A stretch of 54,479 nt of DNA from a bacterium (lineage in GTDB: Bacteria; Sysuimicrobiota; Sysuimicrobiia; Sysuimicrobiales; Segetimicrobiaceae): the NCBI GenBank assembly GCA_035945995.1, contig DASYZR010000096.1, positions 1-54,479 on the forward strand. The letters run 5' to 3'. Below, in pieces: positions 2,830 through 37,329 of this stretch (the stretch's first letter is position 1; each line of letters opens with the position of its first letter). The notes beneath the pieces were generated by a model, which did not search any database, had not been told where the DNA came from, and saw only the letters and a program-made list of their open reading frames with translations. The translations under genes and the position numbers were made by a program.

Positions 2830-3144
2830 TTATCCATGCAGGGCTTTCTCGACAGCCTCGTGGTTGCGCGAGATGGCGAACAGGAGCACACGCGCGGCGT
2901 CCGATGGCTCGCGTCGATGCTGCTCCCAATCCTCAATAGTCCGCTGCGACAGCATATAACGTTGCGCAAACTCTACCTGTGAGAGGCCAAGCCGCTCACG
3001 CAGTGCGCGGACATCGGTGCGCGGCGGAACATACCGCGGCGCACCGAGCCCATTCTCGTGTTGGGGAGCGGGCGGGCGGCCGCAGGAGGGGCAGATGTTT
3101 TCACCGGTCAGGAACTCAGCACATAGTCGCCGTTGATGTGCCAT
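2830..3144 (-). CDS. Antitoxin-like helix-turn-helix regulator (HigA/MqsA type)
   Basis: A 104-residue protein with an N-terminal C-x(10)-C-x2-C stretch that could bind zinc (CPSCG near residues 18-22). A C-terminal XRE helix-turn-helix follows, ALRERLGLSQVEFAQRYMLS then RTIEDWEQHRREP, typical of HigA and MqsA antitoxins. Such proteins repress their own promoter and neutralise an adjacent RNase toxin. No toxin gene is recognisable on either side, so this may be an orphan antitoxin or a stand-alone repressor. A strong GAGGAGG element lies upstream of the ATG but unusually far from it. The methyltransferase gene ends 66 bases upstream on the same strand. Confidence 0.65.
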   Translation of the reverse strand: MAHQRRLCAEFLTGENICPSCGRPPAPQHENGLGAPRYVPPRTDVRALRERLGLSQVEFAQRYMLSQRTIEDWEQHRREPSDAARVLLFAISRNHEAVEKALHG

Positions 3145-3210: not shown

Positions 3211-4014
3211 TCACTCACGGGGCTTTTCCATTCGGAAGTGCGTCGTGTAGATCGGACTGCATGATGGATCGATGCGCTCGAACAGCCATGCGAGGAAGTC
3301 CTCGGAGAACAGCGGGTACAGGCGCAGCCGCTCTCTGCTAAGCGGCGTCCGGTCTCCGACTATCTCTACGTTCGCAAAGCCGGCCTTGCGTCCGGTCTCC
3401 AAAAGCGCTTGCTCCGCAAGCGCACCGGCCAGTCAGCCGGCGTAGGCAGCCTCGCTCTCGAGCACCTCCGTAGGCAGCGTTCCATCGATCACCGAGTCGG
3501 AGAAGACGAGGCGCCCTCCCGGTCGCAGCACGCGGAAGATTTCACGGAATAACTTCCCTTTCGACGTGACGAGATTGATCACGCCGTTGCTGATGACAAC
3601 GTCCACGAAGGCGTCCGGCAGCGGAATCGCCTCCATCCGCCCCTCGATGAACTCAACGTTGGCCACCCCGCCCAGCGCGGCGTGCGCGCGCGCCCTCTCG
3701 AGCATCGCGGGGGTCATGTCGAGTCCGATCGCCCTCCCGGCGGAACCGACGAGTCGGGCCGCGTAGATGGAGTCGATACCGCCGCCGCTGCCCAAATCGA
3801 GCACCACCTCTCCGGGCCTGAGGGCAGCGTAACGAATTGGGTTCCCCAATCCAAGCGCCATCTCGGCCGCCGGCACCGGGACCGTCGCCAATTCCTCCGG
3901 TGTGTAGAGACTGGCGGCGACGCCGGTGTCTTTGGGAACGACGGCGCCGTATGTCTCGCGGACGATCCGGGCCGCGTCCTCGTCGGACCAGCGTAACTCC
4001 CGCTCCTGTGACAT
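3211..4014 (-). CDS. ArsM-like SAM methyltransferase with in-frame UGA; candidate selenoprotein
   Basis: A class I SAM-dependent methyltransferase of the arsenite methyltransferase type. After a strong AAGGAGG site, the frame encodes LYTPEELATVPVPAAEMALG, the SAM motif VLDLGSGGGID and the FREIFRVLRPGGRLVFSDSV segment. It then meets TGA at codon 194, where relatives read W/Y-A/V-G-C-V/L-A-G-A-L. The same frame continues after the TGA for 73 codons (LAGALAEQ, then RKAGFANVEIVGDR), matching the family C-terminus. The UGA therefore replaces the conserved Cys, the normal context for selenocysteine, and a hairpin follows directly. The other Cys usually seen in SNCVINL is Gly here, so arsenic as the substrate is uncertain. 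The alternative is a nonsense mutation, since neighbouring genes are decayed. Confidence 0.7.
3392..3435 (-). promoter_or_regulatory. Candidate bacterial SECIS hairpin after the in-frame UGA
   Basis: Reading the minus strand, 17 bases after the UGA comes a perfect hairpin, GCGCTTGC-GGA-GCAAGCGC (3405-3423): an 8-bp stem closed by a GGA triloop. An outer pairing CCGGT/ACCGG (3424-3428 with 3392-3396) can extend it across an asymmetric 8-base bulge. Bacterial SECIS elements lie inside the coding region just after the UGA, with the apical loop roughly 16-37 bases away and a G in the first loop positions. This element meets both conditions. No selA, selB, selC or selD gene lies in the window. Confidence 0.55.
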
Positions 4015-4047
4015 ACACCCTCCTTCTCGTGCTCGTCGGCCACCGGT

Positions 4048-4334
4048 TCATGCAGGTGTGCGCGATATATGGCCGTCGGAAAAGCGAATCACGACGCCGT
4101 CCGCTGCGAGTGTCTCGAGTCCATGGATCGGGTAGGTCGCAAAACTGGGTTTCGTCTGTTCTCCGTCGGTAATAACCCCGTCGCCTCGAAGCGTTCGATG
4201 GTGTCCCGGGTCGCGCGATCGTACAGTGCGTCCAATTCCCCGCGCGAAATGTGACCAGCATCGAACTCCCGGATCCCGTCAAGGAGTTCTTGCGGCCGGG
4301 GAACGCTGCCAATGGGCTCGGTGGGCAACGGCAT
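4048..4334 (-). pseudogene. N-terminal remnant of a MetE-like methionine synthase II family gene, frameshifted
   Basis: The frame starts MPLPTEPIGSVPRPQELLDG and continues to RDTIERFEATG, the recognisable N-terminus of cobalamin-independent methionine synthase-like proteins. Near 4175 the reading frame is lost. The expected continuation V-I-T-D-G-E-Q-T-K-P-S-F-A-T-Y-P-I-H-G-L appears in another frame and stops at 4048. The family is normally more than 300 residues long; only about 95 residues remain, so both a frameshift and a large 3' deletion have occurred. The methyltransferase gene begins 33 bases beyond the end. Whether the truncated product is made is unknown. Confidence 0.7.
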
Positions 4335-4450
4335 GTGAGTCGCTCCTCTCGCGGAATGCAGCGCAGTGCGTTGGTCCGCCTCTTCGATGGGCCTCTCCTG
4401 CCTCCTGTGAGGCCGCGCGCCATGGCGGTGATGCCTGCGAGGGTCCCTGC

Positions 4451-35512: not shown

Positions 35513-35983
35513 GGCAGTAACATTGTCCAGCATCTGAAATATCGCGAGCCGTTTCCCTTTATCTTCGCCGAACCCATGGCGTCAATTCTCGAGATCCGCC
35601 ACGCGAAAATTACCCCGCGGTTTCGCGCCGACTATCCACCGTTGGGCGTTATCGCCACAATGCACATTACCCGGACGAAACAAATGACACCGACCGGCAT
35701 CATTAAGTGGCAAACGCTGAGTAAGAAGTCACTTCTGGCAGCGCGAAAAAAGGGTTTACCGGTTCACGCGCTAATGCCTGTCGGGGAGCACCTCGGTGGC
35801 AAGGAGCTTCGATTTGTTCAGCGGCGCAATGAGGTCGCGCACGGAAGGATCGATCACTTCATAAAGACCATCGCCGATTACGATATAGGTTCCGAGGCTG
35901 AGGCACCCCAACCAGCATTGACGGGAGTCATGCTGGTCAAGAGAACAAAGTTGGTCCGCAATGAATGCAAAGGAGAATACACA
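35513..35983 (+). pseudogene. Fragment of a HEPN-like hypothetical protein, AT-richer than neighbours
   Basis: A coherent reading begins SNIVQHLKYREPFPFIFAEP and continues through PRFRADYPPLGVIATMHITR and LSKKSLLAARKKGLPVHALM to RFVQRRNEVAHGRIDHFIKT. R-N-E-V-A-H is an R-x4-H motif of the kind found in HEPN RNases. The frame then runs, without its own stop, straight into the start of the epoxide-hydrolase remnant, so the 3' end is lost. The stretch is visibly less GC-rich than its surroundings, which suggests a different origin. Function is unknown; the HEPN link rests on the motif alone. Confidence 0.35.
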
Positions 35984-37147
35984 ATGACCCAAGTCGAAAA
36001 AGTGCAGTATCCGGCCGAAGCCAACGCAGTCCGCTCCTTCCGCATCAACGTTCCGGAAGCGGCGCTCGTCGACCTCCGCCGACGCGTGGCGGCGACACGG
36101 TGGCCCGACCGAGACGGTCACTGATCAATCCCAGGGCGTGCAGCTGGCGACGATCCAGGGGCTCGTACGCTACTGGGGGACGGACTACGACTGGCGGAAG
36201 GCGGAAGCGAAGCTGAATGCCTTGCCGCAGTTCGTGACCAATATCGACGGGCTCGACATTCAGTACGTGCACGTCCCCTCTCGTCATCCGAATGCCCTGC
36301 CGCTGATCATGACCCATGGCTGGCCCGGCTCGATCTTCGAACTCCTGAAGGTCATTGGTCCGCTCACGGATCCCACGGCCTATGGCGGACGCGCAGAGGA
36401 CGCCTTCGATCTCGTGCCGCCCTCGATGCCCGGCTATGCCTTCTCGGGCAAGCACTGGCTGGGGTCCCGACCACATCGCGCGCGCCTGGGCCGAGCGGAT
36501 GGGGCGCCTGGGATACACGCGCTATGTGTCGCAAGGCGGCCAATAGGGTTCGGTCGTCTCAGACGTGATGGCGCGTCAGGCGCCGGCGGGACTGCTGGGA
36601 TCCACGTCAACACGCCCGCGACCGTGCCACCGGATATTGCGAAGGCCCTCACCAATAGCGATCCGGCGCCGTCCGGGTTGTCCGCCGCGGAAAAGGCTGC
36701 GTTCGATCGAATTAATTGCTGGTACGCGCAGGGCTCTGGCTATGCCGCCATCATGGGGACCCGCCCGCAAACCCTGGGCTACAGCCTGGCGGATTCGCCC
36801 GCCGGCCTCGCGGCCTGATTCTACGACAAGTTCGCCGCGTGGACGTATACTGGCGGTCACCCCGAGCGGGAACTCACGCGCGACGAGATGCTCGACGACA
36901 CGTCTTCCGCGCGGCTCTACTGGGAAAGTAAACGCCAACAACTTTTCAACGCGGTGGACATCTCCATCCCTGCTGCCGTGACGGTCTTCCCCGACGAGCT
37001 CTACCGTGCTCCACGCAGCTGGGCCAAGCGTGCGTATCACAAGCTCATCTATTTCCACGAAGTCGACAAAGGTGGTCACTTCGCGGCGTGGAACAGCCGG
37101 AGCTGTTCACGGCCGAGATCCGGGCGGCGTTCGAATCGTTGCGCTAA
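35984..37147 (+). pseudogene. Epoxide hydrolase (EHN plus alpha/beta-hydrolase) with several lesions
   Basis: An epoxide hydrolase-like sequence can be followed across frames. AGGAG and ATG are followed by VRSFRINVPEAALVDLRRRV, a frameshift, GLVRYWGTDYDWRKAEAKLN, ALPLIMTHGWPGSIFELLKV, then another frameshift (GPDHIARAWAERMGRLGYTR). The body continues VPPDIAKALTNSDPAPSGLS to SLADSPAGLAA, where TGA stands in place of the expected Trp before FYDKFAAWTYTGG. Further frameshifts follow before the end (AYHKLIYFHEVDKGGHFAAW). At least four lesions make this a clear pseudogene of a roughly 385-residue enzyme. A small GCCGCGC/GCGCGGC hairpin lies after the stop. Confidence 0.85.
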
Positions 37148-37254
37148 TCTAATAAGCCGCGCGCGAATGCGCGGCGGGCCATGGGCTACCCTGAAAACGC
37201 GCTTCTCCTCTATTGAAGCGAGCGACTATACTTCGGCGCGTCGAGGAAGAGTAC

Positions 37255-37329
37255 TGGTGGAGCTGGAGGGAATTGAACCCTCGACCTCCTCTACGCCAAA
37301 GAGGCGCTCTCCCGCTGAGCTACAGCCCC
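37255..37329 (-). tRNA. tRNA-Ala (GGC anticodon)
   Basis: On the minus strand the sequence folds as a 75-nt tRNA. The acceptor stem pairs GGGGCTG with CAGCTCC, the D-arm contains AGCTCAGCGGGAGAGC, and the anticodon stem-loop is CCTCT-TTGGCGT-AGAGG with anticodon GGC. The T-arm is GAGGG-TTCAATT-CCCTC. Discriminator A and an encoded CCA end the molecule. It reads GCC codons. Its 3' end faces the accessory region with many broken genes. Confidence 0.95.

Follow-up and report, generated by a model that had tools for sequence, protein, structure and literature searches.

This locus raises two questions: is an in-frame UGA, codon 194 of a methyltransferase gene resembling arsenite methyltransferase (ArsM), read as selenocysteine (Sec), and what would the resulting protein do? 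The window, that is, the whole 54,479-nucleotide stretch of DNA analysed, corresponds to contig C96; the genome comprises 4.15 Mb and is 98.8% complete. Automatic annotation, in which UGA is a stop, would cut the gene at residue 193 and conceal it. The features discussed below are as follows.

3211..4014, minus strand: predicted Sec-containing class I SAM methyltransferase of the ArsM-like subfamily MT1, 267 residues with UGA read as Sec; frame open except for UGA194
4018..4025, minus strand: likely ribosome-binding site AAGGAGGG, read from the sequence upstream of the ATG at 4014
3847..3849, minus strand: codon of Leu56, at the position of CmArsM Cys72 by alignment; arsenic ligand lost
3778..3804, minus strand: SAM-binding motif I, VLDLGSGGG, from the sequence, a Pfam match and the subfamily alignment
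3583..3585, minus strand: codon of Gly144, at the position of CmArsM Cys174 by alignment; arsenic ligand lost
3433..3435, minus strand: in-frame UGA, codon 194, aligned with CmArsM Cys224 and flanked by Y-A-G and L-A-G-A-L
3405..3423, minus strand: SECIS-like hairpin, a perfect 8-bp stem with a GGA loop (3413-3415), the loop lying 17 nt after the UGA
3307..3318, minus strand: YPLF motif, an MT1-specific C-terminal signature 3' of Sec, by alignment
3211..3432, minus strand: post-UGA coding region of 73 codons plus the final TGA stop, supported by dN/dS and an invariant YPL motif

The gene starts with an ATG at 4014, meets the TGA of codon 194 at 3435-3433, and runs on for 73 more sense codons before a second TGA, at 3213-3211, ends it. 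The preliminary description had reported this codon, its flanking residues and the frame beyond it, all of which the sequence confirms, and alignment with CmArsM Cys224 upholds its placing of the UGA at the conserved Cys position of arsenite methyltransferase-type proteins. The protein matches the Pfam families Methyltransf_31 (111 bits), Methyltransf_11 and Methyltransf_25, and its nearest curated family is the arsenite methyltransferase NF008823, at 236.7 bits under a cut-off of 263. An AlphaFold2 model, for which 11 subfamily sequences were the input, had a mean pLDDT of 90; its best fold matches in the PDB were CmArsM structures, the top one carrying As(III) and SAH. The SAM-binding motif is intact, and is near-invariant in the MT1 alignment. 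Directly downstream of the gene, on the same strand, a small HTH_3 protein is encoded (2830-3144; NadS-like at 38 bits, under the cut-off). Directly upstream (~4100-4390, minus strand) lies a short, apparently frameshifted frame that by eye resembles the N-terminus of a MetE-type methionine synthase. This fragment (~4.1-4.4 kb) was suspected to be a partner of the Sec gene and was set aside, a Pfam search having returned no match.

UGA194 is very probably decoded as Sec, to judge from the machinery present and from the conservation of the codon. All four of selA, selB, selC and selD, for which the preliminary description had suggested a search, were found in the genome: contig C155 carries selA (551 bits), selB (352 bits, over the cut-off) and a tRNA-Sec (70.8 bits) with a UCA anticodon, and SelD (386 bits) is encoded on contig C5 (L169, 47185-48105). 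This SelD is a selenoprotein itself, with an in-frame UGA within its motif CAGU-ASK. A second MT1 copy, on contig C111 of the same genome, is 77% identical and has kept its UGA. In a comparison set of 43 genomes, probably belonging to CSP1-3/Sysuimicrobiota, UGA stands at the same codon in 12 intact genes from 11 genomes (two in the window's own genome and ten in ten others). Relatives include a MAG labelled Armatimonadetes and Bacterium HR32, which we take to belong to CSP1-3/Sysuimicrobiota, although it is entered at NCBI as unclassified Bacteria and goes unmentioned in the paper on Sysuimicrobiota. The frame after the UGA is under purifying selection: compared with the C111, G009 and G003 copies, the window gene has a dN/dS of 0.13-0.24 there, and of 0.44 against the more distant G017; the YPL motif is invariant in this C-terminal part across the MT1 alignment.

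The Sec codon also exchanges with Cys, an alternation that the preliminary description had proposed looking for. HR32 has TGC at this position, and Cys is found in four actinobacteria (Glycomyces, Nitriliruptoraceae, G188 and G262), as it is in canonical ArsMs. A maximum-likelihood tree groups the 17 MT1 sequences in a single clade (97/80), separate from canonical ArsM; Sec and Cys interchange twice within this clade, and the Cys gene of HR32 is nested in a group of Sec genes. Besides the subclade of the window gene, MT1 includes a sister subclade, about 50% identical to it, that contains Sec or Cys forms. SelB scored over its cut-off in 10 of the 11 genomes with an intact UGA gene; G017, the other one, is 72% complete and gave no match over the cut-off. 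In the same profile search of the genomes, SelB over the cut-off was not found in HR32 (G034), G014 or G028. The UGA-containing copies of the last two are broken: in G028 (L059, 9598-10157) a deletion joins residue 139 of an ECF sigma factor to residue 141 of the methyltransferase, and in G014 (L060, 9381-9650) the C-terminal third remains. In these three genomes, then, doubtful Sec machinery goes with replacement of the UGA codon or with decay of the gene. Across the phylum SelB is so common that its enrichment with the intact UGA gene is weak (Fisher p 0.14); when only carriers are compared, SelB separates intact UGA genes from Cys or broken copies (p 0.011, a statistic that ignores relatedness).

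The hairpin following the UGA supports Sec decoding and is not decisive. Its strands on the minus strand are GCGCUUGC-GGA-GCAAGCGC (3423-3405), so that the perfect 8-bp stem and the GGA loop described earlier stand, but the 17 bases previously given as the spacing of the hairpin are the distance from the UGA to the loop, and the stem starts 9 nt past the UGA. A single hairpin of this kind is weak evidence, since an 8-bp stem is not unusual in so GC-rich a setting: 8.6% (5-10%) of synonymous shuffles yield a stem of at least 8 bp, and the dinucleotide z-score over 43 nt is -1.5. It gains meaning from conservation. Stem, GGA loop and 17-nt spacing recur in each of the five intact genes of the window subclade, and among six sequences, the G014 remnant included, two pairs show compensatory changes (G-C to A-U in G017 and U-A to G-C in the G014 remnant), which is the extent of the covariation. 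Standard pairs fill 97.9% of the pair cells in these six sequences, and slid versions of the stem reach at most 44%. In the sister subclade the usual stem is another one, of 9 bp, whose loop lies about 21 nt after the UGA and which shows no double changes. An Rfam search of the hairpin region returned no credible family.

Other ways of reading UGA194 fare poorly against this evidence. It is very improbable that the codon is read by a different suppressor tRNA, for which the candidate is a second tRNA with a UCA anticodon, on contig C24 (L010, 4244-4330), scoring 56.6 bits with the tRNA-Sec model: the complete selABCD set is present, homologues of the gene exchange with Cys and not with Ser or Trp, and this tRNA is not kept as UCA, its sole near full-length match in the phylum having the anticodon CCA, whereas UGA194 is conserved. 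That match, in the congener G002 (L180, 1502-1582), is 80% identical. The C24 tRNA has a long variable arm and lies just before an odd UGC tRNA, also with a long variable arm (4355-4441); the two are possibly mobile or suppressor-type. It is scarcely credible that UGA194 is a genuine stop or nonsense mutation leaving a pseudogene or a 193-residue protein; UGA is an ordinary stop in this genome and the window does hold decayed genes, such as an epoxide hydrolase near 36 kb, but both paralogues keep the codon, as do orthologues from several families, and the selected downstream frame and its invariant YPL contradict decay. The epoxide-hydrolase-like gene in question (EHN, 101 bits; ~35950-37300, plus strand) shows apparent frame changes and an in-frame TGA, which are due to decay or to assembly errors. 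Conservation of the UGA and of the frame likewise rejects a sequencing error or pseudogene, a local error being ruled out by the retention of TGA in paralogues and orthologues alike. A reassigned code, against which the preliminary description had already argued, is rejected by the complete selABCD set and by the UGA that ends this same gene. Taken together, the Sec genes, the Sec/Cys alternation, the selection and the conserved hairpin give strong sequence support to its proposal of a Sec-containing methyltransferase homologous to ArsM.

The term "ArsM-like" needs qualification. Homology and fold bear it out, but on the alignment it is not to be taken as meaning arsenite methyltransferase, as this branch lacks two of the three arsenic ligands. 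Cys72, Cys174 and Cys224 are conserved in every ArsM orthologue of PMC5552862, and PMC3877260, in its summary of CmArsM mutants, gives C174A and C224A as having no activity on either iAs or MMA. In MT1 the position of Cys224 is conserved, with Sec194 in place of Cys in the window protein. The position of Cys174 holds Gly in 17 of 17 MT1 members and Cys in all 37 canonical ArsMs compared; that of Cys72 holds Leu, Val or Met, and the Cys-rich N-terminal cluster is absent. The subfamily is thus marked by the motifs LGLGNP, LGVGNP or LGMGNP, SNGVIN and AGU, in contrast to canonical ArsMs, whether of this phylum or of other origin, which have Cys at the Cys72 position (typically LGCGNP), SNCVIN, Cys at the Cys224 position and often the N-terminal Cys cluster. 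Since Cys174 is lost and CmArsM C174A is inactive, ordinary arsenite methylation by MT1 is unlikely, and its sequences do not look like those of a canonical arsenite METHYLTRANSFERASE. The loss of the other residues that grip arsenic makes a different job probable for this branch.

An alternative that we consider unlikely, though it is the likeliest of the rivals, is that MT1 does methylate arsenic, with Sec standing in for Cys224 and the remaining arsenic ligands provided by small thiols. It is consistent with NF008823 being the closest curated family, with the closest folds being CmArsM structures, the first of them arsenic-bound, and with the published listing of Sec-ArsM among selenoprotein families, where it carries the UxxG motif seen here as well (PMC13188914). 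Against it stand the score below the family cut-off, the loss of the two ligands and of the N-terminal cluster, the reported inactivity of C174A, and the coexistence of a canonical ArsM in the window's genome (contig C114); nor were ars genes recognised by eye beside the MT1 members examined.

The genomic neighbourhood offers a different indication, which comes from the sister subclade. Around the window gene and its closest relatives no conserved neighbours were found, the flanking genes differing in every relative examined. Genes for an ECF sigma factor and a zinc anti-sigma factor lie directly upstream in all 12 intact sister-subclade loci and in none of the six window-subclade loci, although absent partners do not prove absence, since contigs are short at some loci. 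An OsmC gene is present in seven of the 12 sister-subclade loci, and several carry genes for AhpD-like (CMD), cupin and DUF1326 proteins; 48 canonical-ArsM loci, taken as a control, gave two ECF matches and none for the other operon partners. The anti-sigma factor is nearest to RsrA (TIGR03988; 52.1 bits, cut-off 62.5) and the ECF factor to SigH (TIGR02947; 99 bits, cut-off 251.6), so that "SigR/RsrA-like" denotes resemblance and not membership, both scores being under the cut-offs. In the Actinomycetota members, which have Cys, the ECF and anti-sigma genes are present too; OsmC accompanies them in Glycomyces and in the Nitriliruptoraceae MAG, and in the latter the MT1 methyltransferase is fused to a cupin-like C-terminus. 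By analogy, the sister-subclade operon points to thiol or peroxide stress; for the window gene this link is carried over, as its own subclade lies outside the sigma/OsmC operon. A literature search for the combination of ECF, OsmC and arsenite methyltransferase found no report.

At three actinobacterial loci the gene directly downstream of MT1 belongs to a second ArsM-like subfamily, MT2 (motifs HFHTGR, AGVANPF and SNG), and has Cys; in a Nitriliruptoraceae MAG, MT2 has an in-frame UGA (WKGUIAGALP). The MT2 loci are L177 (G044:C24:3977-4546), L176, L178 and L179, and the best curated match of the subfamily is NF041537 (243 bits for a Cys member).

An additional scenario, which we regard as quite improbable, is that the methyltransferase fold has been repurposed into a redox enzyme with Sec as a peroxidatic or disulfide-reducing centre. 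The OsmC, AhpD-like and RsrA-like anti-sigma partners of the sister-clade operon would suit such an enzyme, and redox enzymes make up the majority of selenoproteins; the intact, near-invariant SAM-binding motif argues instead for methyl transfer, and a conserved resolving Cys was not seen.

Our preferred reading is that the window gene encodes a Sec protein with a single-ligand site, a methyltransferase of the ArsM superfamily, which on the sequence evidence we hold with considerable confidence. Comparison across genomes shows the capacity to decode Sec, the Sec/Cys exchange, the loss of the other ligands, the intact SAM site and the sister-clade operon. SelB and Sec-tRNA would read UGA194, aided by the hairpin just downstream, to give a SAM-dependent methyltransferase of 267 residues. 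In MT1 the equivalent of Cys224 is predicted to be Sec (Cys where SelB is lost or outside the phylum), while Gly and Leu/Val/Met stand at the equivalents of Cys174 and Cys72; next to the methyl group of SAM, Sec194 would be the one soft residue able to act as nucleophile or ligand. We infer that the enzyme methylates a substrate requiring one selenolate or thiolate: Sec194 may capture a substrate of soft electrophilic or of chalcogen/metalloid type, perhaps delivered together with a small thiol, with no need for a second protein thiolate. This substrate would be methylated within a thiol/peroxide-stress response, the enzyme not serving as the cell's arsenite methylase; the substrate class is a guess by analogy with the operon, and it counts against this reading that a mono-selenolate As(III)-thiol complex could also be accepted. 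Taken alone, a non-arsenic stress role has a little less than an even chance of being right. Only tentatively do we suggest the fuller picture, in which a lone-selenolate methyltransferase derived from ArsM acts on a non-arsenic substrate, methylating it or passing the methyl group through Sec, as the output of a SigR/RsrA-like thiol-stress switch common to the window's phylum (Sec) and the Actinomycetota (Cys), and would represent a previously undescribed class of selenoenzyme.

Compared with ArsM/AS3MT (NF008823; CmArsM 4FR0 and 6CX6), the window protein shares the fold, the SAM motif, the site of the last conserved Cys, occupied by Sec, and the SN-x-VIN and A-G-x-x-x-G-A motifs; it differs in the lost Cys72 and Cys174 equivalents and N-terminal Cys cluster, in a C-terminal region with YPLF, and in its score under the curated cut-off. 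Like the window protein, NF041537 (ArsM_AhpD_UU), NF041536 (ArsM_DUF2284_UU) and NF047649 (MTase_UXPK_star) have an ArsM-like domain with Sec at UxxG, and an AhpD-like gene also adjoins several sister-clade MT1 genes. These are, however, fusion or multi-Sec proteins, whereas the window protein has one Sec, lacks a fused domain and reaches 153-187 bits where the cut-offs are 460-575. Haft and Tolstoy reportedly described related fusion selenoproteins in 2025. Sister-clade operons begin, as SigR/RsrA thiol-stress regulons do, with an ECF factor (nearest SigH) and a zinc anti-sigma factor (nearest RsrA), but they score under the curated cut-offs and the window gene lies outside such an operon.

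Sec in ArsM proteins is already known. A Sec-containing arsenite methyltransferase with a UxxG motif is on published selenoprotein lists (PMC13188914, PMC9312934), and Sec-ArsM was detected in marine metagenomes in 2008 (PMC2398784), which bears out the mention of such surveys in the preliminary description. The listed Sec form (WP_011987699.1, PMC13188914) shares UxxG with the window protein, in which it is ULAG, the two being compared by the listed motif. What may be new is the MT1 branch, whose loss of the other arsenic ligands was established against canonical ArsMs. Neither the single-ligand branch nor the sigma-factor operon was found described in the literature searched, whose coverage of the closest work was partial.

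Sec-ArsM has so far been filed as "arsenite methyltransferase" by homology. As MT1 shows, Sec can outlast the other arsenic ligands and still exchange with Cys, which suggests that this position is selected for something besides a two- or three-thiolate arsenic site. The subfamily supplies a natural Sec/Cys pair within one operon type, and opens the function of single-ligand ArsM relatives to direct testing.
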